Part shown: piece after piece, positions 7,402 through 16,781 of the stretch
How positions within the stretch are numbered: position 1 is the stretch's first letter
Layout of the letters: each line of letters opens with the position of its first letter
DNA from: Pseudomonas chlororaphis subsp. aurantiaca
GTDB taxonomy: Bacteria > Pseudomonadota > Gammaproteobacteria > Pseudomonadales > Pseudomonadaceae
Assembly (NCBI RefSeq): GCF_013466605.1
Contig: NZ_CP059162.1
Span: forward strand, 4,402,001 to 4,466,000
DNA: 64,000 nt
Reading direction: 5' to 3'
The notes under the pieces: generated by a model
What the model saw: the letters and a program-made list of their open reading frames with translations, nothing else
Databases searched by the model: none
What the model was told of the DNA's origin: nothing
Program-made: the position numbers and the translations under genes

Positions 7402-8388
7402 TTAAAACCCCACATCCAGCACCACGTTGTCGATATAGGTCCCCGCCGGCGGCGTGGCCTGGTCGGTGTAGATCCGGGCGTTGTAGTTGAACACCTGGCT
7501 GCCGGTGCCCAGGCCGTTGCCGGGGTTCACCTCGGCGTCGGAACTGGCCCGCCGCGCCGCGCCCACGCTGCCCCAGCGGGTGGTGCCGGCGCTTTTGAAG
7601 ATGTCGTAGGCCAGGTAGTTGCTCCCCGAGATCATCCGCCGCCGCCCGCCGACGCTGACGGCATGCTGGCCATCGTCCAGGCCCACGGTGTAGGCACTGC
7701 CCTTGGTACAGGCGAGGTTGATGGTCTGCCCGCTGACGGTGGCGAAGGCGCTGATCACCGGCGCGCTGCCGAAGCTGATGTTGGGCGCGGTGATCACGCA
7801 GTCGTTGGCTACCGTCAGGTTGACCGTCAGGCTGGCGACACCGCTGCCGATATCGCGCCCCAGGCATGCGCCCAGCGCACCGATCCCCGCGCAGTAGTTC
7901 CAGCTCCAGGCAATGCTCAGGGTCTCGGTGTAGATGCCGGCGGCGACGTTGCTGCCGGTGATGCTGCCCAGGTAGACCGGAATGGCCTTGGCCACGGTCG
8001 GGCTGCCCAGCAGCCCCAGGGCGTCGACGATGGAGTTGCGCGCGAAGTCGAACTGCACGCCGCGGGTGATGGGGTAGTTGGTGCTGTTGTCGCCGTAGAT
8101 CGTGTAGCCGATGACATCGCCGGTGGGGCCCAGCAGCCCGCTCTGCGAGGAGGTGATGGTGGCGTAGAAATGGTCGTTGCTGGCCATCAGGGTCGCCAAC
8201 GAGCCGGTGCAGGCCAGGCCGGCGTTGGTGCTGGAAGCAGGTTGCGAGGTGGTGCGCACCAGGATCGAACTGAGGGTGCCGAAACTCGCCGGCGAGGTAC
8301 TGACCACCGAGCACAGGGCCTGGACCGCCCCGGGCAACAACGCCAACAGCAACAACCCCAGCCTCCAATAACGACGCAACCTGTCCAT
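7402..8388 (-). CDS. csuE: Csu-type pilus tip adhesin, two-domain SCPU protein
   Basis: 328 residues from ATG 8388. A signal peptide (MDRLRRYWRLGLLLLALLPG) ends near VQALC. Two spore-coat-U domains follow: about 25-165, then a second beginning at NDCVITAPNISFGSAP and ending ATPPAGTYIDNVVLDVGF. Two-domain SCPU proteins at the end of such operons are the pilus tip adhesins (CsuE of Acinetobacter), in which hydrophobic loops of the N-terminal domain mediate attachment to abiotic surfaces. A GTG at 8430 is in frame, but ATG 8388 has GGGAG upstream and gives a normal signal peptide. Last gene of the operon. Confidence 0.88.
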   Translation of the reverse strand: MDRLRRYWRLGLLLLALLPGAVQALCSVVSTSPASFGTLSSILVRTTSQPASSTNAGLACTGSLATLMASNDHFYATITSSQSGLLGPTGDVIGYTIYGDNSTNYPITRGVQFDFARNSIVDALGLLGSPTVAKAIPVYLGSITGSNVAAGIYTETLSIAWSWNYCAGIGALGACLGRDIGSGVASLTVNLTVANDCVITAPNISFGSAPVISAFATVSGQTINLACTKGSAYTVGLDDGQHAVSVGGRRRMISGSNYLAYDIFKSAGTTRWGSVGAARRASSDAEVNPGNGLGTGSQVFNYNARIYTDQATPPAGTYIDNVVLDVGF

Positions 8389-8420
8389 GTTCACTGACTC
8401 CCGATTACGTTCATGAATCC

Positions 8421-10778
8421 TCACTGACACACCAGCGGCCCAATCAACGGCACCTGTTCCTGTTCCGGCTCCAGGGTGAAGCTCACCTGGCAGATGCCGC
8501 CGTCGGCGAGGCTGACCCGCAGGCTGTTGTTCGGCGCCAGGTTTTCCAGGTACACCAGGCCGTCCCAGCCCACCACCGTCTGGGCGCCGCTCTGTTCGTG
8601 GGTCACCAGGCTGCCCAGGGGCAGCTCATGGTGCCGGGCGTCCACCAGGACCACGCTGGCGGCGAGGACGCGGGTCAAGGGGAACTCCACCAGATAGCCG
8701 CTGCCACGACGCACCGCGACCCGCTGTTCGACCAGCGGGCTCTGCACGTTGGGCGGCAGGTTCAACGGGTCGATCTCGTATTTGCCGCGGTAATAGGCGC
8801 TGCTCCAGGGCACCAGCAGATGGCCGTTCTTATCGGTGCTTCCTACCAGCTGGTTTTCGTAGCGCACCGGAATATCCCGGTAGCCGTCGGTGCTGACCAC
8901 CACGAAGGCGTCGTCGATGCGGTTGGCGGCGAACACCTGGTGGTCCATCCACACCAGCGAACCGCTGGCATCGGCCCAGCGGGTTTGCGCCTCGCTGGAA
9001 CCATAGACCCCGGCCTGCAATTGCACCGACTGCAAACGCCAGGTCAGGTCGGCCTGGCGGTAGGCCGGCGCATCGCCCTGGGCATATCCAAGATTGAAGC
9101 CGAAGCCGCCCTCGCTGGGCACCGCCCGGCTGTAGTTGACCCGCTGCCGGTTCTGCCCGTCCTTGCTGCGCTCGCTGCTCAGGCTGAGGCTGCCGTGGAG
9201 GTCGAACGGAATCACCAGTTGGGCCTGGACCGCCCAGTTGCTGTCGCCGATCTCGCGGTTGGCCGACAGGTAGAAACTGCTGCTGCGCCACAGCGGCTTG
9301 CTCCAGGTCAGGTTGAGCAGGCGGGTGCGCGAGTCGTCCGCGGCGCGCACATCGAAATAGCCGGCGCCGAGGCTGCCGTAGCGCTCGAGGTTGAGGCTCA
9401 GGGTCAGCTGTTCGCTGCGCTGGCTGAGGCTGGCGTAGGGGCTGTCCACCACCGTCAGGTCGGCATAGCCGTCGCGGCGCTGCATGCGCTGGTAGGACAG
9501 GCTGTAGCGTTGGCTGCTGTACTGATAACCGAGGCTGATCTGCTGCCCGCCCTGGCCGTCGAAGCGGCTCTGGCTGATGGCGCTGTTGAGCACGCCGAAA
9601 TTGCCCATGCGCAGGTTGCCGCCGAAGCCGCCGAGGGTCAGGGATTCCGCCGCCTCGGCGTGGCCTTCCAGGGTCAGGTTATCGCTCAGGCCGTAGCGCA
9701 GGCTGCCGGAAGTGACGCCGGGGCCGTAGCTGAAATCCCGCAGCGTGTAGTCGCGGCGCAGGGTCCCGCCGGCCACCGAGAAGTCGCTCAGGCCTTTTTG
9801 CAGCAGGCTGCTGGTGACATAGAACGGCACGGTGGTCGATACCTGTCGCCCCAGGGCATCGGTGGTCACCACCACCGCTTCGCCGGCACCGTTGATGAAC
9901 GGGATATTGGTCAGGGTGTAGGGCCCCGGCTGCAGGTCGGCGCTGCTGGACTTGTAGCCGTTGATAAACAGGTCCACCGAGGACGGCACCGCCGCCTCCC
10001 CGGCGAACTGCGGCAAGGGGTAGGTCACCAGGTCCGGGCGCACGGCAAAATCACGGGACAGTTGCACGCCGCCCAGGCGCACCGCGTTGCTCCAGGGCAA
10101 GGCGCCGCTGACCAGGTCGCCGGCCTCGTAGGTCAGCAGGCGTTCGTCGTCGGAGTAGCGCCAGGTCGTGTCGTAGCGCCGGTAGCCATTGTTCAGCGTG
10201 CCCTCGCCGAGGCCGGAAAAGGTCCGCCGGTACTGGCCGGTGTTGGACAGGGTGCCCCAACCGTCGAACAGCCGCACCTCATTCCAGGCGGCTAGGTAGG
10301 TGCCGGCATCGTCGGTGTCGTTGAGGTACAGATCGTAATTGAGCAAGGCGCCGAAACTGCTCAACGCCGGGGTTCGTGGATAGGCCTGGCGGCTGCCGAT
10401 CCGTTGCTCCGGCAGCCAGTCCGGCGGCACCTCCAGCAACAGGCGCTGGCCCTGGCTGTCGTAGTCGCTGTGCAGCCCTCGCAGGCTGTCGAGGGCGACC
10501 TGCGCGTCGAGCCCCTCGGGCAATTTCATGCCGCTTTCCCGCAGGGCCTGGGCCGGCGCAAACAGGCGTCCGGCACGTTGCTCGACGGCGATCACTCGCC
10601 CGGTATTCATCTGATTGACCACCAGCTCCAGGAACAGTTGGGCATCGCTGATCGCTTCCATGCCGCTGGGTGGCGGCGGCAGCTCGCCCCCCAGGCTGGC
10701 GGAGGCGAACACCCAGCAACACAGCCCGCTCGCCGCCCACCCCGGGCGCCAGAAACGACGAGCTGCGCCGAGGCTCAT
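8421..10778 (-). CDS. csuD: Csu-type outer-membrane fimbrial usher
   Basis: 785 residues. After a signal peptide (about 1-30) come an N-terminal targeting domain, the usher beta-barrel with an internal plug (about 230-330, including DLFINGYKSSSADLQPGPYTLTNIP), and C-terminal domains ending PLVCQ. Two cysteines in the last domain (GGICQVSF and PLVCQ) are typical of ushers. It forms the outer-membrane pore that assembles pilus subunits delivered by the chaperone. It starts 115 bases after the chaperone gene and runs up to the tip adhesin gene. Confidence 0.92.
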   Translation of the reverse strand: MSLGAARRFWRPGWAASGLCCWVFASASLGGELPPPPSGMEAISDAQLFLELVVNQMNTGRVIAVEQRAGRLFAPAQALRESGMKLPEGLDAQVALDSLRGLHSDYDSQGQRLLLEVPPDWLPEQRIGSRQAYPRTPALSSFGALLNYDLYLNDTDDAGTYLAAWNEVRLFDGWGTLSNTGQYRRTFSGLGEGTLNNGYRRYDTTWRYSDDERLLTYEAGDLVSGALPWSNAVRLGGVQLSRDFAVRPDLVTYPLPQFAGEAAVPSSVDLFINGYKSSSADLQPGPYTLTNIPFINGAGEAVVVTTDALGRQVSTTVPFYVTSSLLQKGLSDFSVAGGTLRRDYTLRDFSYGPGVTSGSLRYGLSDNLTLEGHAEAAESLTLGGFGGNLRMGNFGVLNSAISQSRFDGQGGQQISLGYQYSSQRYSLSYQRMQRRDGYADLTVVDSPYASLSQRSEQLTLSLNLERYGSLGAGYFDVRAADDSRTRLLNLTWSKPLWRSSSFYLSANREIGDSNWAVQAQLVIPFDLHGSLSLSSERSKDGQNRQRVNYSRAVPSEGGFGFNLGYAQGDAPAYRQADLTWRLQSVQLQAGVYGSSEAQTRWADASGSLVWMDHQVFAANRIDDAFVVVSTDGYRDIPVRYENQLVGSTDKNGHLLVPWSSAYYRGKYEIDPLNLPPNVQSPLVEQRVAVRRGSGYLVEFPLTRVLAASVVLVDARHHELPLGSLVTHEQSGAQTVVGWDGLVYLENLAPNNSLRVSLADGGICQVSFTLEPEQEQVPLIGPLVCQ

Positions 10779-10893
10779 TGTGGCTTTTCATCCATCGATG
10801 GAGACCTTTCTTCCATGGCCAGCCGTGGTTCCCGTTACCGGTCAGCCCGAGCGGCAGCTCTGCAACCCCGCCTGTCCGCGGCGGCAAGCGGCT

Positions 10894-11691
10894 TCAGTGG
10901 GCCGGCGCAACGCTCTGCACCTGTGGCGCGCCATTGACCCGCACCTGCAGCACCGCGTCCGTGGTCGGCGCAGCGGGCAGCGGCCAACGCATGATCGCCC
11001 CCGGCAGCACGTAGCCCAGCAGCCCTCCCACCAGCGGCCGGGTCTGCCCCGCCTGCTTGAACGCCACATCGGTCAGGCGTGCATGCACCGCGCCCTGGTT
11101 GCGTAGCTCCACGTAATTGCGCCCGTCCACTGCCACCTTGCGCCAGCTCAGCTCGGGCACGCCGGCGCTTTTCGGGTCACGCTGGCGGGTGCTGTCTTCC
11201 TTGCTCCAGAGCCCGGCCCCGTAGGCGAACAGCGGCACCGAATAGCGCATCTGGAAACGGATGGCCGCCGCCGTCTTGCCCTCGCCGTCGGCGATCGGCG
11301 GCTGGGCCGAGGGGATTTCATCGATGATGATCCGGTAGGCCAGCTCCTGGCCGGGCGGGACTTCGCGGGTCCGGGTCAGGCGCACCAATTGCTTCTGCCC
11401 CGGCGCGATCTTCGCCACCGGCGGGCTGCCGATCACGTCTCGCTGATTCTGATACTGGTCCTCGAAGCCGCTCTGGCTCCAGGCAAAGACGCGGATCTGC
11501 AGGTTGGCGGTTTCCGTGCCGCGGTTTTCCAGCCACAAGGCGCTGGCCTGTTGGTCGGCCTCCAGCACCGGGTCGATCGGCCAGATCAGCACCGAACTGG
11601 CGGCCCGGGCCTGGCCCCCCCCCCCCCCCAGCAACGCCATGGCCAGCACGGCACAACCAACGACCTGCAACCGCCGGGAAGTCGAATACAT
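10894..11691 (-). CDS. csuC: Csu-type periplasmic pilus chaperone with poly-G tract in the signal peptide
   Basis: 265 residues. The signal peptide is encoded across a run of 15 G residues that gives five glycines (MALLGGGGGQARA). The mature part starts about SSVLIWPIDPVL and has the two immunoglobulin-like domains of a pilus chaperone. LVRLTRTREVPPGQELAYRIIIDEIP is the conserved strand-G/hinge region, and MRYSVPLFAYG marks the end of domain 1. It caps SCPU subunits by donor-strand complementation and delivers them to the usher. With 15 Gs the frame is open; gain or loss of one G would break it within the first 25 codons. Confidence 0.9.
   Translation of the reverse strand: MYSTSRRLQVVGCAVLAMALLGGGGGQARAASSVLIWPIDPVLEADQQASALWLENRGTETANLQIRVFAWSQSGFEDQYQNQRDVIGSPPVAKIAPGQKQLVRLTRTREVPPGQELAYRIIIDEIPSAQPPIADGEGKTAAAIRFQMRYSVPLFAYGAGLWSKEDSTRQRDPKSAGVPELSWRKVAVDGRNYVELRNQGAVHARLTDVAFKQAGQTRPLVGGLLGYVLPGAIMRWPLPAAPTTDAVLQVRVNGAPQVQSVAPAH
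11615..11629. repeat. Homopolymeric tract, 15 C (15 G on the coding strand)
   Basis: The longest single-base run noticed in the window, inside the signal-peptide codons of the pilus chaperone gene. Such tracts are prone to slipped-strand mispairing. Confidence 0.95.
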
Positions 11692-11718
11692 ACCGCTACT
11701 CCTTATGGTCTTGCTCCA

Positions 11719-12219
11719 TCACCACGACAACTGCACCTGCAGCACGTCGCTGTACGTCCCCCCAGGCTGGTTGCCCGGTAATTGCACCTGGCCGTAGATC
11801 GGCAGGCTGATGTTGTTCGCGTCGCTGTAGGCCACCGCCACGCTCTGGCCGATGCCCAGGCTCTGGCTGAACGCGGCGTCGCGAAACAGCTGATAAGCCA
11901 CCCGCGCACTGCCGCCATCGAGCTGCATGTGCCGTCCACTGCTGTTGTACTGGCCGCCGTCGACACTCATGTTCAGGGTCACCCCCGGCGTGCATTGCAG
12001 TTGCACGCTGCTCGCCAGGGCGACCTGCAGCGTGCTGGTGGACAACGCCGACTGGCTGCCGAAGTCCAGGCTGCCGTAGTTGCTCACCCCGCCCACCACC
12101 AGGCAGCCGGCGACCACCGTGGCGCTGACCTGGAAGCTCTGGCTGGTCACCGCCGCCAGGGGCAGCGGCAGGCTGCTGGCAGCGAGCAGCACCAGCGCCG
12201 TGCAGGCGTGACGGGCCAT
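11719..12219 (-). CDS. SCPU-domain pilus subunit
   Basis: 166 residues with a signal peptide ending near PLAAVTS and one spore-coat-U domain: TVVAGCLVVGGVSNYGSLDFG at the start, LQCTPGVTLNMSVDGGQ in the middle and GGTYSDVLQVQLSW at the C-terminus. The paired cysteines form the conserved disulfide of the fold. It begins 4 bases after the stop of the preceding subunit gene. It is one of four single-domain subunits; which is the major rod pilin is not evident. Confidence 0.88.
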   Translation of the reverse strand: MARHACTALVLLAASSLPLPLAAVTSQSFQVSATVVAGCLVVGGVSNYGSLDFGSQSALSTSTLQVALASSVQLQCTPGVTLNMSVDGGQYNSSGRHMQLDGGSARVAYQLFRDAAFSQSLGIGQSVAVAYSDANNISLPIYGQVQLPGNQPGGTYSDVLQVQLSW

Positions 12220-12223
12220 GGCG

Positions 12224-12757
12224 TCAGAAGGTCAGTTCGACGGCGACGGTGTCGGTGTAGGTCCCCGCCGGCAGGCCGGCCTTGCCAAGCGCCTTGCCGT
12301 AGATATTGACGGTCTGCGCCACGCCGGTGCTGGTGGCGAGGTTGATGACATCGTCGATGGCCAGGAGCTGCGAATGGCCGGAGTCGGTGTACAAGTCGTA
12401 AGGCACGAAGTTGCCGCTGCCATCGGCCAGGGCCCGGGTGCCGCCGGCGGACTGGCCGTCGTGGGCGCCCGCGCGGACCTTCACCACCGGGCTGGTGCCG
12501 CTGGAACAGAGGATCGACAAGGCCCCACCGCCACCACCGAGCACCTGGGCCGTGGCCTGGGTGAACAGGCTGTCGGTGGTGCCGAAGTTCAGGGCGCCGA
12601 AGTTCAGGCCACTGCTGCCGCCCGCGCCGTTGACCTGGCAACTGCTGGTGAGAATCAGGCTGGACGTGATCTGGCCGGTGACCGTCGCGGCCTGGGCGCT
12701 GGAGAAGATCGCGAGGCCAAGCAGGGCCAGGGCGATCCGGGACACAAACATATGCAT
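12224..12757 (-). CDS. SCPU-domain pilus subunit
   Basis: 177 residues from ATG 12757, chosen because AGAGGA lies 8 bases upstream; an upstream in-frame start at 12784 would overlap the previous gene. The signal peptide ends near SSAQAATV. The SCPU domain includes SSCQVNGAGGSSGLNFGALNFG, SILCSSGTSPVVKVRAG and the C-terminal LPAGTYTDTVAVELTF beta-strand that would donate or accept in subunit polymerisation. Third gene of the pilus operon. Confidence 0.88.
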   Translation of the reverse strand: MHMFVSRIALALLGLAIFSSAQAATVTGQITSSLILTSSCQVNGAGGSSGLNFGALNFGTTDSLFTQATAQVLGGGGGALSILCSSGTSPVVKVRAGAHDGQSAGGTRALADGSGNFVPYDLYTDSGHSQLLAIDDVINLATSTGVAQTVNIYGKALGKAGLPAGTYTDTVAVELTF

Positions 12758-12777
12758 GACATTCGTCCTCTGTGGGT

Positions 12778-13317
12778 TTACCAATCCAGCGTCACCGTCA
12801 GGGTGTCGGTGTAGACCCCTGCCGGCAGCGCGCGGCTATTCGCGACCACCGAGCCAAACACCGGGATCGGTACCTGGGCTCCACTGGTAACGGCGAAATT
12901 GTGTTGTTGACCGATGCTGTAGCTGTCGCTGCCGGAGGCATCGAGGAACAGCCGATAGGCAATGGTCTGGCGGCCATTGCTCAGGCGCCGGGTGCTGCCG
13001 TCGCCATTCAGGCCGCCGTCGATGGTCACGGTGAACCCGGTCACCGAAGGGTTGCAGGCGACTTCCAGGCGGCCATTGCCAGCGCCGCTGAGGCTGGCAT
13101 TCAGGGGATTGGCCCAGGTCGGGCCGTGCTGGCCGAAATCCAGCAGGCCGAAGTCGCTGAGCGGGTTTTCGGGCGTGCTGGTGGCGCCATTGGTCACTTC
13201 GCAGCCGGCGATGATGGTCAACCGCGCGTGGATCTGCCCGCTGATCGCCGCTTGCGCGTGGTCAGCCAGTAGTAGCACGGAACCCAGGGCCGCCAGCGCC
13301 CAGCGTCTACTTGTCAT
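12778..13317 (-). CDS. SCPU-domain pilus subunit
   Basis: 179 residues. The signal peptide ends near ADHAQAAIS and one SCPU domain follows (TIIAGCEVTNGATSTPENPL then FGLLDFGQHG, VACNPSVTGFTVTIDGG, and the C-terminal PAGVYTDTLTVTLDW). It lies 20 bases from the following subunit gene and 101 bases from the preceding one. Second gene of the operon. Confidence 0.88.
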   Translation of the reverse strand: MTSRRWALAALGSVLLLADHAQAAISGQIHARLTIIAGCEVTNGATSTPENPLSDFGLLDFGQHGPTWANPLNASLSGAGNGRLEVACNPSVTGFTVTIDGGLNGDGSTRRLSNGRQTIAYRLFLDASGSDSYSIGQQHNFAVTSGAQVPIPVFGSVVANSRALPAGVYTDTLTVTLDW

Positions 13318-13418
13318 AGCGCATCCATCCCAGATCCATCAGGATCTCTCCCTTGACCGCTCATGGCGAGCGACCTCCCTGTACTGCCCGGATCCACCGG
13401 ACGGCTCCTTCACAGTCA

Positions 13419-13946
13419 CTACCAGGTGACCGTCACTTTCAGCAGATCGGAATAACGACTGACCCGCGGGATCTCGGCCAGCGGTTCGATCCGCCCGTAC
13501 AACGGCAGGTCCACCGACCCCGAGTCCGGCACCCGGCCGCTCACCGGCACATTTACCGGCAGCGGAATGCGCCGGGCCGGATCCTGGTACAGGCGATACG
13601 GAATGGGTTTGCTGTGTTCGGCACTGCCGGCCAGGTAGCGCACCTCGCCGACGCCTCCGTGTTGTCCGCCGTCGACGCGCAATTGATAAGGGGTGTCCGG
13701 GTTGCATTCGAGCCTGGGCAAGCGGGCGTCGAGCAACGCCGCGCTGAGGGGGCCGGCGGGGTTGTCGAGGCGCGGGCTGCTGCCGAAATCCAGCACGCCC
13801 AGTTGCTCGATACCGGCATCGCGCTGCTGTCCCACCAGCTGGCAGCCACGCTGCACGTTGACCCGGACCTCCACCTGGAGCTCCGCGGCCCATGCCGTCG
13901 CGCCGAGCAACATGCTCATGACTGCGAAAACCAGCTTGCCATTCAA
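13419..13946 (-). CDS. SCPU-domain pilus subunit, first gene of the Csu-type operon
   Basis: 175 residues. The signal peptide MNGKLVFAVMSMLLGATAWA is followed by an SCPU domain (RGCQLVGQQRDAGIEQLGVLDFG, LECNPDTPYQLRVDGG, and terminal YSDLLKVTVTW). ATG 13946 has GAGG 6 bases upstream. Acinetobacter Csu clusters carry three single-domain subunit genes; this operon has four. In Acinetobacter the first gene encodes the major pilin, but I cannot assign that role here. The 273 bases between this gene and the next at 14220 hold the likely operon promoter; no convincing -35/-10 pair was identified. Confidence 0.86.
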   Translation of the reverse strand: MNGKLVFAVMSMLLGATAWAAELQVEVRVNVQRGCQLVGQQRDAGIEQLGVLDFGSSPRLDNPAGPLSAALLDARLPRLECNPDTPYQLRVDGGQHGGVGEVRYLAGSAEHSKPIPYRLYQDPARRIPLPVNVPVSGRVPDSGSVDLPLYGRIEPLAEIPRVSRYSDLLKVTVTW

Positions 13947-14219
13947 CGCCTCAATCCTTTTGAGGAACGATAGGTACAGCTCAGGTTAGTCAGCGCTGGG
14001 GAAATCGCCAGCGCCGGGGGGCAAGCCGCGCGCCAATAAAACAGCCGCTTGAGCGCCCGGTGCACCGTGGTCGAACACAGTGACACGGGCAAAAAGCTGT
14101 ACCGACCAGAGCTTTTCGTAGAACCAACCAGCACCTTCAGACAGCGCTGGATGCCGGGCCGGGGATTGGTTAAATTACCGCGCCGGTTCCAGGGGGGGAG
14201 CGGGCCTGGAACAATCGGG

Positions 14220-15374
14220 GTGACACCATTGGCCGCTTTACCGCCAAACCGCTCGCTACGCCCATCGCGCTGGCCCAGGCTGCGCGCGTTCTTCGGCAAG
14301 GCCTTCGCCCGGCCCGCCGCCAGTACCAGCCACGGCCGAGTGATTCACGAGTATTTCCGCCATAAAGCCCACGACCAGGGCTACACCCTGAGCCACAGCC
14401 AGCAGCGGGTGATCGACTACATGGCCCAGCAGGCCAACGCCCTGCTCCAGCCAGACGCCAGGCCACACGCCAGCCGCAGCCTGTATCTTTATGGCGCGGT
14501 GGGACGGGGCAAAAGCTGGCTGCTGGACGGCTTCTTCCGCGCCATCCCGCTGGCGGAAAAACAGCGCCTGCACTTCCACGATTTCTTCGCCCAGCTGCAT
14601 CAGGGCATGTTCCGCCACCGCGAGCAGCCCGACGCCCTGGAGGCCACCCTCGACGAACTGCTCAGCCACTGTCGGGTGCTGTGCTTCGACGAGTTCCACG
14701 TCCACGACATCGGCGACGCGATGCTGATCACGCGGCTGTTCAAGGCGCTGTTCCAACGCGGCATCCTGCTGCTGGTGACCTCCAACTACGCCCCCCAGGG
14801 CTTGCTGCCCAACCCGCTCTACCACGCGCGCTTCAAGCCGGTGATCGACCTGATCGCCAGCCGCATGCAAGTGATGGAGGTCGGCGGCCCCCACGACTAC
14901 CGCAGCCAGCCCCGCAGCCATTCGCAGCAGGTGTTCACCCAGGGCCGTTACCTGTGGCCCGGCAGCGAGCAGCATCGCCAGAGCCTGGGCCTGCCACCAC
15001 GCAACGGCCCGACCTCGGCGCTGATGGTCGGCGCGCGCCAGCTCCAGGTGCGGTTGTGCGAACAACACAGCGTGGGTTTTGCCTTCAGTGACCTGTGCGA
15101 ACAGCCGACCGCGGTCATGGACTACCTGGAGCTGAGCCGGCGTTTCGATCACTGGATCATCGACGAGCTGCCCGAGTTGGGCGAATGCCCGATCGCCGTG
15201 CAGCAGCGCTTTATCAACCTGATCGACGTGCTGTACGACCAGGACAAGCACCTGACCCTGATCGGCGAACGCTCCCTGCGCGAGAGCCTGGGCGGTAACA
15301 CCATCGACCTGGCGCGCGCGCGCAGCCGCCTGGGACAGCTGCAGGAAATCAGCGCGGATACGCCGCCGAGCTGA
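14220..15374 (+). CDS. zapE: ZapE/AFG1-family P-loop ATPase
   Basis: 384 residues from GTG 14220 (VTPLAALPP resembles the usual MTPL start); the frame is open further upstream but codon character is poor there. The Walker A motif is YGAVGRGKSWLLD, Walker B is VLCFDEFHVHD, followed by the sensor region LLLVTSNYAPQGLLPNPLYH. The family binds FtsZ and aids constriction in enterobacteria, and its mitochondrial homologue AFG1/LACE1 aids protein turnover. Pseudomonas usually also has a zapE near the ribosomal/petA genes, so this may be a second paralogue. Start assignment is uncertain. Confidence 0.82.
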   Translation: MTPLAALPPNRSLRPSRWPRLRAFFGKAFARPAASTSHGRVIHEYFRHKAHDQGYTLSHSQQRVIDYMAQQANALLQPDARPHASRSLYLYGAVGRGKSWLLDGFFRAIPLAEKQRLHFHDFFAQLHQGMFRHREQPDALEATLDELLSHCRVLCFDEFHVHDIGDAMLITRLFKALFQRGILLLVTSNYAPQGLLPNPLYHARFKPVIDLIASRMQVMEVGGPHDYRSQPRSHSQQVFTQGRYLWPGSEQHRQSLGLPPRNGPTSALMVGARQLQVRLCEQHSVGFAFSDLCEQPTAVMDYLELSRRFDHWIIDELPELGECPIAVQQRFINLIDVLYDQDKHLTLIGERSLRESLGGNTIDLARARSRLGQLQEISADTPPS

Positions 15375-15467
15375 ACCGGCGGTCGCCACTCGCCGTCCTG
15401 CGCCGCTATCATGGCGGCCATTTCCAGGGCCGTGCGCCCTCCTCCTGCCTGAGTGTCGAATCTGTTC

Positions 15468-16781
15468 ATGGATACCCTTGCCCAACTGCGGGCCGGCCAA
15501 TTGGCCGGGCTCAAGCGTCTGGACCTGTCTTGCGGGCTGACCGAATTCCCCCGGGAAATCTTCGACCTGGCGGACTCGCTGGAAGTCCTCAACCTCAGCG
15601 GCAATGCCCTGAGCAGCCTGCCGGACGACCTGCACCGCCTGACCCGCCTGCGGGTGCTGTTCTGCTCCGACAATCTCTTCACGCAAATGCCGGCCTGCGT
15701 CGGCCAGTGCGCGCAACTGAGCATGGTCGGCTTCAAGGCCAACCGGATCGAGCGGGTGCCCGCCGCCGCCCTGCCGCCGCTGTTGCGCTGGCTGATCCTC
15801 ACCGACAACCGCATCGAGGAACTGCCGGACGAGCTGGGCCGGCGCCCGCACCTGCAAAAGCTGATGCTCTCCGGCAACCGCCTGACCCGGCTGCCCCAGA
15901 GCCTCGGCCAATGCCACCAGCTGGAACTGATCCGCATCGCCGCCAACCGGCTCAGCGCATTGCCGGCCTTCCTGCTGGGCCTGCCACGCCTGACCTGGCT
16001 GGCCTATGCCGGCAACCCGCTGGAATCCGAGGCCGACGCGGCGGCGCTGGAGTCAGTGGCGCAGATTCCCTGGGCCGAGCTGGATTTGCAGCAGCGCCTG
16101 GGCGAAGGCGCCTCCGGGGTGATTCACCAGGCCCGCTGGCAGCGCCCCGGGCAAGCATCAGTCGAGGTGGCGGTCAAGCTGTACAAGGGCAGCATGACCA
16201 GCGACGGCTCGCCGCTGCATGAAATGAACGCCTGCATCAGCGCCGGCCGGCACCCGAACCTGATCCGGGTCGAAGGCCGGATCAGCGATCACCCCCAAGG
16301 GCAGAACGGCCTGGTGATGCAGTTGATCGAGCCGAGCTACCGCAACCTGGCGGCCTTGCCGAGCCTGGCCTCCTGCACCCGCGACATTTACGACGAGAGC
16401 AGCCGTTTCAGCGCCGACGCAACCTTGCGCATGGCCCGCGGCATCGCCTCGGTCGGCGCGCACCTGCACCGCCAGGGCATCACCCACGGCGACCTGTACG
16501 GCCATAACATTCTGTGGAACCCGGAGGGCGAGTGCCTGCTGGGGGATTTTGGCGCGGCGTCTTTCCATGCGCTGGCCGACACCGAGGAAACCCGGGCGCT
16601 GCAACGCATCGAAGTACGGGCCTTCGGCATTCTGCTGGAGGAGTTGCTGGCAAGGATCGAGCCGGGCCTGAGCCCGCGGCAGCACGAACGCCTGCAAGCG
16701 CTGGTCAGCGACTGCTGTCAGCCGCAGGTGCTGGCGCGGCCGGGGTTTGCCGAAGTCGGGGACGTGTTGCGGGGGATTTGA
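15468..16781 (+). CDS. Leucine-rich-repeat protein fused to a Ser/Thr protein kinase domain
   Basis: 437 residues. About eight leucine-rich repeats of 22-23 residues span about 13-185 (repeating pattern LxxLxLSxNxLxxLPxxL). A eukaryotic-type kinase domain covers about 205-437: glycine loop GEGASG (212-217), ATP lysine K237 in VAVKLY, catalytic loop HGDLYGHN (340-347) and DFG at 360-362. The catalytic residues are intact, so it is likely active. It lacks a signal peptide or membrane helix and is probably cytoplasmic. An in-frame GTG at 15453 is possible, but ATG 15468 fits the MDTLAQLR start better. Substrate unknown. Confidence 0.88.
   Translation: MDTLAQLRAGQLAGLKRLDLSCGLTEFPREIFDLADSLEVLNLSGNALSSLPDDLHRLTRLRVLFCSDNLFTQMPACVGQCAQLSMVGFKANRIERVPAAALPPLLRWLILTDNRIEELPDELGRRPHLQKLMLSGNRLTRLPQSLGQCHQLELIRIAANRLSALPAFLLGLPRLTWLAYAGNPLESEADAAALESVAQIPWAELDLQQRLGEGASGVIHQARWQRPGQASVEVAVKLYKGSMTSDGSPLHEMNACISAGRHPNLIRVEGRISDHPQGQNGLVMQLIEPSYRNLAALPSLASCTRDIYDESSRFSADATLRMARGIASVGAHLHRQGITHGDLYGHNILWNPEGECLLGDFGAASFHALADTEETRALQRIEVRAFGILLEELLARIEPGLSPRQHERLQALVSDCCQPQVLARPGFAEVGDVLRGI

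Follow-up and report, generated by a model that had tools for sequence, protein, structure and literature searches.

Analysing a 64,000-nucleotide window of the Pseudomonas chlororaphis subsp. aurantiaca genome (hereafter the window), we identified an uninterrupted run of 15 guanines (G15) in the signal peptide of a Csu pilus chaperone, which is probably a young slippage expansion that acts as a de facto ON/OFF locus for the whole pilus. Of the genomes searched, this is the only one with the tract, and at 15 G the chaperone gene is ON; a recent and incidental origin is the simplest history for it. Loss of the reading frame upon a slip follows from the sequence, and frequent slipping is likely from precedent. 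A G tract of this length would slip often even with working mismatch repair, so that the population would hold reversible OFF variants, deprived of the chaperone and hence of the pilus, together with in-frame variants carrying one glycine more or fewer, and the locus would behave as an ON/OFF switch of the entire organelle.

The pilus is encoded by seven genes, ordered as four SCPU pilin genes, the chaperone, and then the usher and the tip protein. The features, in window positions, are:

13419..13946, minus strand: pilin subunit (SCPU), first of the seven genes
12778..13317, minus strand: pilin subunit (SCPU)
12224..12784, minus strand: pilin subunit (SCPU)
11719..12219, minus strand: pilin subunit (SCPU)
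11699..11704, minus strand: AAGGAG, the probable ribosome-binding site for the chaperone, with 7 nt separating it from the ATG start codon
10894..11691, minus strand: CsuC-type periplasmic chaperone, 265 aa, at its in-frame (ON) length (PapD_N, 5.3e-16; CsuC chains 5d6h/6fjy, E 2.4e-46)
11615..11629, minus strand: G15 homopolymer tract in the signal peptide of the chaperone, spanning the third base of codon 21 to the second base of codon 26 and coding for five Gly
8421..10778, minus strand: outer-membrane usher, 785 aa (Usher, PF00577, 3.9e-32; PapC_C, PF13953, 3.6e-12; dN/dS 0.14 and 0.12)
7402..8430, minus strand: CsuE-type tip adhesin, 342 aa, with two SCPU stretches (CsuE 6fjy_B, E 3.8e-24)

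The chaperone homologous to CsuC, the SCPU domain (PF05229) present in all five subunit proteins including the CsuE-type tip, and the usher within the operon together assign this system to the Csu, or archaic chaperone-usher, pili, as the original prediction had proposed; the seven-gene pilus that it described was likewise recovered, with open reading frames in 7/7 genes. Against G361 and G351, the two nearest of the species sampled, dN/dS was 0.09-0.26 in 13 of 14 gene comparisons and 0.54 in one pilin. The intact frames and the low dN/dS indicate that the operon has been kept in use. Searching the own genome with the chaperone returned one match only at E<=1e-3, so that no close stand-in is available, and the genome contains four usher places, the Csu usher among them. 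A promoter scan of positions 10700-14300 predicted no promoter, an uninformative negative. Two usher matches (G000:C1, 4504031-4505659 and 5943879-5945507) have identical score and length and perhaps reflect a recent duplication. Elsewhere in the window, a 442-aa ORF (15453-16781, plus strand) appears, by eye, to join leucine-rich repeats to a kinase-like domain.

The claim of 15 consecutive in-frame G on the coding strand of the chaperone signal peptide proved exact. The tract, read as C15 on the plus strand, occupies gene positions 63-77 of the ORF 11691..10894 on the minus strand, its codons being CTG, four GGG and a GGC (L21 and G22-G26), with the frame kept. In the alignment with CsuC (5d6h/6fjy), which covers query residues 34-241, residue 34 of the query is matched to residue 3 of the chain, so that the mature protein probably starts near residue 31-32 and the tract would lie wholly inside the signal peptide. 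No other homopolymer of at least 9 was detected in the 64 kb of the window, the next longest run of any base being 8, and the window's own G-after-G frequency, slippage being ignored, gives an expected G15 count of 2.7e-4. Across the long ORFs of the window, only 13.9% of the glycines are encoded by GGG, and four such codons in a row would therefore point to slippage instead of amino-acid choice. Genome-wide (6.95 Mb, one contig), four G/C runs of at least 12 (12, 15, 16 and 22), one of 11 and five of 9 were counted: a long G tract is rare in this genome, not unique. The 141-nt start region folds worse than its own shuffles (z +2.2, with a fold program that does not treat G-quadruplexes).

Downstream of the tract, the present frame runs for 239 codons to its stop, and in the native sequence the other two frames stop after 8 and 98 codons, which upholds the predicted early frameshift upon a one-base slip. 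By arithmetic, lengths of 14 and 17 enter the 8-codon frame and lengths of 13 and 16 the 98-codon frame, while 12 and 18 would stay in frame and encode four and six Gly, respectively. Given these early stops, a slip of one base should deprive the cell of exported chaperone; since the mature domain directly follows the tract, a later start could provide only a chaperone without signal peptide. RNA-polymerase slippage could nevertheless leave OFF alleles leaky. In the sequence and frames as read, a long repeat is thus located where a change of length would alter expression, as in contingency loci. No OFF allele was found in protein databases with the window's out-of-frame ORF 11318-11656 as query: the only match (P0121, 62 aa, 68% identical over 34% of the query) is not an OFF allele. 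Nor did a second length of the tract turn up in any of the sequences, the data being one genome per species and protein clusters at 90% identity, which hide alleles.

The two repair genes examined are intact, both mutS (positions 1-839 of 840) and mutL (positions 1-554 of 555) being present without stops, and a mutator origin of the tract is consequently not supported. An intact repair system need not freeze G15, since meningococcal reporters carrying G10-G13 were reported to switch equally with and without MutL (PMC4085013). Nor can frequent switching at G15 be taken for granted, as the highest switching frequencies in the same study were not those of the longest tracts (>10). For some homopolymer loci of B. 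pertussis, the maximal estimated rate was given as 6.7e-4 per generation (PMC1891110); both rate sources concern other organisms. Poly-G and poly-C tracts above two bases are described as generally under-represented in the coding genes of the genomes studied (PMC2831843), which makes an intact G15 unusual. Intergenic homopolymer indels in evolved P. aeruginosa mutators were read as selected, genic ones being rarer (PMC8115180), which calls for caution.

The distribution of the tract argues for a recent appearance. A chaperone match was obtained in 224/398 Pseudomonas genomes searched, own genome included, and the signal-peptide DNA was read for the 80 best-scoring of the 223 others. None of these 80 orthologues from other species has a long G run, the longest in the 90 bases upstream of the conserved SVLIWP motif being of 2-5, against 15 in the window. 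A pattern of at least 8 G shortly before SVLIWP occurred in 1 of 368 Pseudomonas genomes, namely the own genome that served as positive control, and in none of the other 367; this pattern demands the exact motif, and the reading of the 80 orthologues is independent of it. Over an 84,980-species collection, to which the own genome possibly does not belong, the pattern matched one Acidobacteriota contig and no Pseudomonas. At the protein level, signal-peptide Gly runs of 0-3 were observed in 165/165 cluster representatives (the best 120 of 732 and the best 120 of 245, two overlapping sets, P0121 left out). The nearest among these representatives, a P. chlororaphis protein of 263 aa and 93% identity, has LLGAVQARAASS where the window has LLGGGGGQARAASS. 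The window is two codons longer, as expected if a short G run had grown in frame; a base change making a short G run, followed by slippage growth, would be the simplest path. The idea of a conserved tract is thus rejected. The original prediction had named non-repetitive coding in relatives as its refuting case, and such coding was found; it refutes conservation, not mutability. The phase-variation reading is partly supported, in its Csu identity, its seven genes, its signal-peptide site and its early stops; the absence of the tract in relatives speaks against it. In another species (L020, G073), the chaperone signal peptide contains four in-frame copies of a 9-base unit, CTG TTG GGG, of which its near relative P0023 has fewer copies. 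This difference indicates that the signal-peptide region tolerates length change and has grown by repeats in that species as well, with the frame kept.

The three other G/C runs of at least 12 in the own genome are:

G000:C1:5052286-5052307 (L048 2287-2308): G22 preceded by a TG repeat and followed, 33 bases further on, by a transposase ORF (HTH_Tnp_1, IS3-type by eye)
G000:C1:6159616-6159631 (L049 2117-2132): C16 then A11; on the other strand, by eye, the T tail of a terminator-like hairpin running into G16
G000:C1:1567405-1567416 (L061 9406-9417): C12 within the gene of a fimbrial adhesin (PF00419) that belongs to another chaperone-usher locus, now decayed

Two of the four long tracts of the genome are hence located in pilus genes. 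By our own estimate, the four usher places and the remnant represent ~0.4% of the genome, which gives, post hoc, a chance of ~1% for at least one of the three other tracts to be located there. There is also a more ambitious view, which we hold only tentatively: slippage in the shared chaperone would toggle the archaic pilus as a newly born whole-organelle switch, the adhesin tract marking the beginning of a pilus phasome, before its spread or loss. The C12 locus is decayed, its usher being reduced to a C-terminal scrap and a chaperone truncated, and the best-scoring coding frames differ before and after C12. No homopolymer was found at the C12 site in the ten adhesin relatives read, a second copy in the same genome included, and 9/10 of them lack an internal stop. 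A dead adhesin gene is a permissive place for C12, and the tract may be neutral there.

That selection for bistable attachment made and maintains this whole-organelle switch, as in an evolved contingency locus, appears unlikely. The position of the tract at the 5' end of the one gene needed by every subunit, its ON length within an otherwise intact and constrained operon, the second long tract in a chaperone-usher adhesin gene and the precedents of Bordetella fim (PMC1891110), Haemophilus hif (PMC9820224) and P. putida flhB (PMC2831843) all speak for such a locus. Against it stand the absence of the tract from every other Pseudomonas examined, by reading or by pattern, and the decay of the C12 locus, where the tract may have no effect. 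The retention of a repeat in related lineages, usual for contingency loci although not strictly required, was not found. The restriction to one genome, together with sister tracts that are mostly non-coding, favours a recent accident with switch behaviour over a long-kept contingency locus.

At least one tract of at least 12 G was present in 36/95 related genomes, the Pseudomonas subset contributing 26/59 genomes and 52 sites. The context was examined at 47 of the 52 sites (the five of the fragmented draft G035 left out), and most of these 47 either appear non-coding on one flank or both, by a crude codon score, or adjoin a contig end or an N gap; among the 12 sites with an ORF listing, L083, L103, L104 and perhaps L087 lie inside long frames. 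By eye, L083 (G041:C1:2620270 region) is a G12 in frame in another Pseudomonas, within an ORF of great length that is rich in glycine and resembles RTX repeats, and L094 is an htpX-like gene broken in a gapped draft. In the own genome, a T run (9) leads straight into a G run (11) on one strand at G000:C1:2897964-2897974 (L043 1965-1975), an arrangement seen in two cases (L043, with T9 and G11, and L049, with T11 and G16), and a G9 lies in frame in an aldehyde dehydrogenase-like ORF, by eye, at G000:C1:3368765-3368773 (L046 2066-2074).

Since the other long tracts of the own genome are non-coding or in a decayed gene, expansion needs no function. G15 could be viewed as a neutral passenger: extra small residues would be tolerated in signal peptides, the run would have grown by chance, and OFF cells would be purged or too rare to matter. 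This view is in line with the settings of the sister tracts (one next to a transposase gene, one next to a terminator-like hairpin, one within a gene in decay) and with the 9-base repeat difference between L020 and P0023. However, tolerance of in-frame changes is no bar to out-of-frame slips, and cells would be expected to pay a cost for a long G tract within a gene unless the OFF state is tolerable at times, so that we consider a pure passenger rather improbable. A sequencing or assembly error, the true sequence being shorter or interrupted, is most improbable of all: homopolymers are error-prone and relatives have short G runs at the site, but 15 G keep the reading frame, which a random length would do in 1 of 3 cases, the assembly consists of one contig with a completeness of 100, and growth by slippage agrees with the two codons by which the gene exceeds the nearest protein.

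The young expansion that we favour, with its probable de facto switching, would have different implications depending on the variability of the tract. If its lengths vary, the chaperone gene of an archaic pilus would possess a repeat switch within its coding sequence; pili of this class serve attachment in many Gram-negative bacteria, and we found few repeat switches described for the genus. The birth of a contingency locus would then be open to watching, because the G run of relatives is short at this site. If its lengths do not vary, the case would show how little a striking homopolymer in one genome says about switching.

Among the papers listed in searches of open-licence PMC full text, none described phase variation driven by a repeat for a pilus of the Csu or CupE type. 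Homopolymer switching of surface structures, which the original prediction had invoked as established in other bacteria, is indeed documented, by the poly-G of flhB (PMC2831843) and the C tracts of Bordetella fimbriae (PMC1891110). The homologous Csu pilus of Acinetobacter baumannii (PMC10721868) is reported to be expressed in a bistable manner, its transition being tied to the GGDEF/EAL protein PdeB, and the available portion of that report mentions no sequence-repeat mechanism. In the coding poly-G contingency genes described for Neisseria and Campylobacter (PMC4085013, PMC4965091), multiples of three in frame are ON and other lengths OFF; those tracts vary with measured rates, whereas G15 is single and known from one genome. 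The flhB gene of P. putida DOT-T1E (PMC2831843, PMC3056050) resembles the present case as a Pseudomonas surface-organelle gene subject to 5' poly-G frameshifts, but it is a flagellar export gene with observed variation, and G15 is known from one assembly. For pili, the Haemophilus hif promoter is described as a precedent for a repeat switch (PMC9820224). The Bordetella fim2, fim3 and fimX genes (PMC1891110) share with G15 a long C/G homopolymer governing fimbrial expression, with C tracts reported as 10-15 (fim2) and 13-18 (fim3) long in the strains sampled. The Bordetella tract is described in the promoter of the major subunit, where it alters transcription, whereas G15 is part of the coding sequence for the assembly chaperone, with an effect on the organelle that would be all-or-none.
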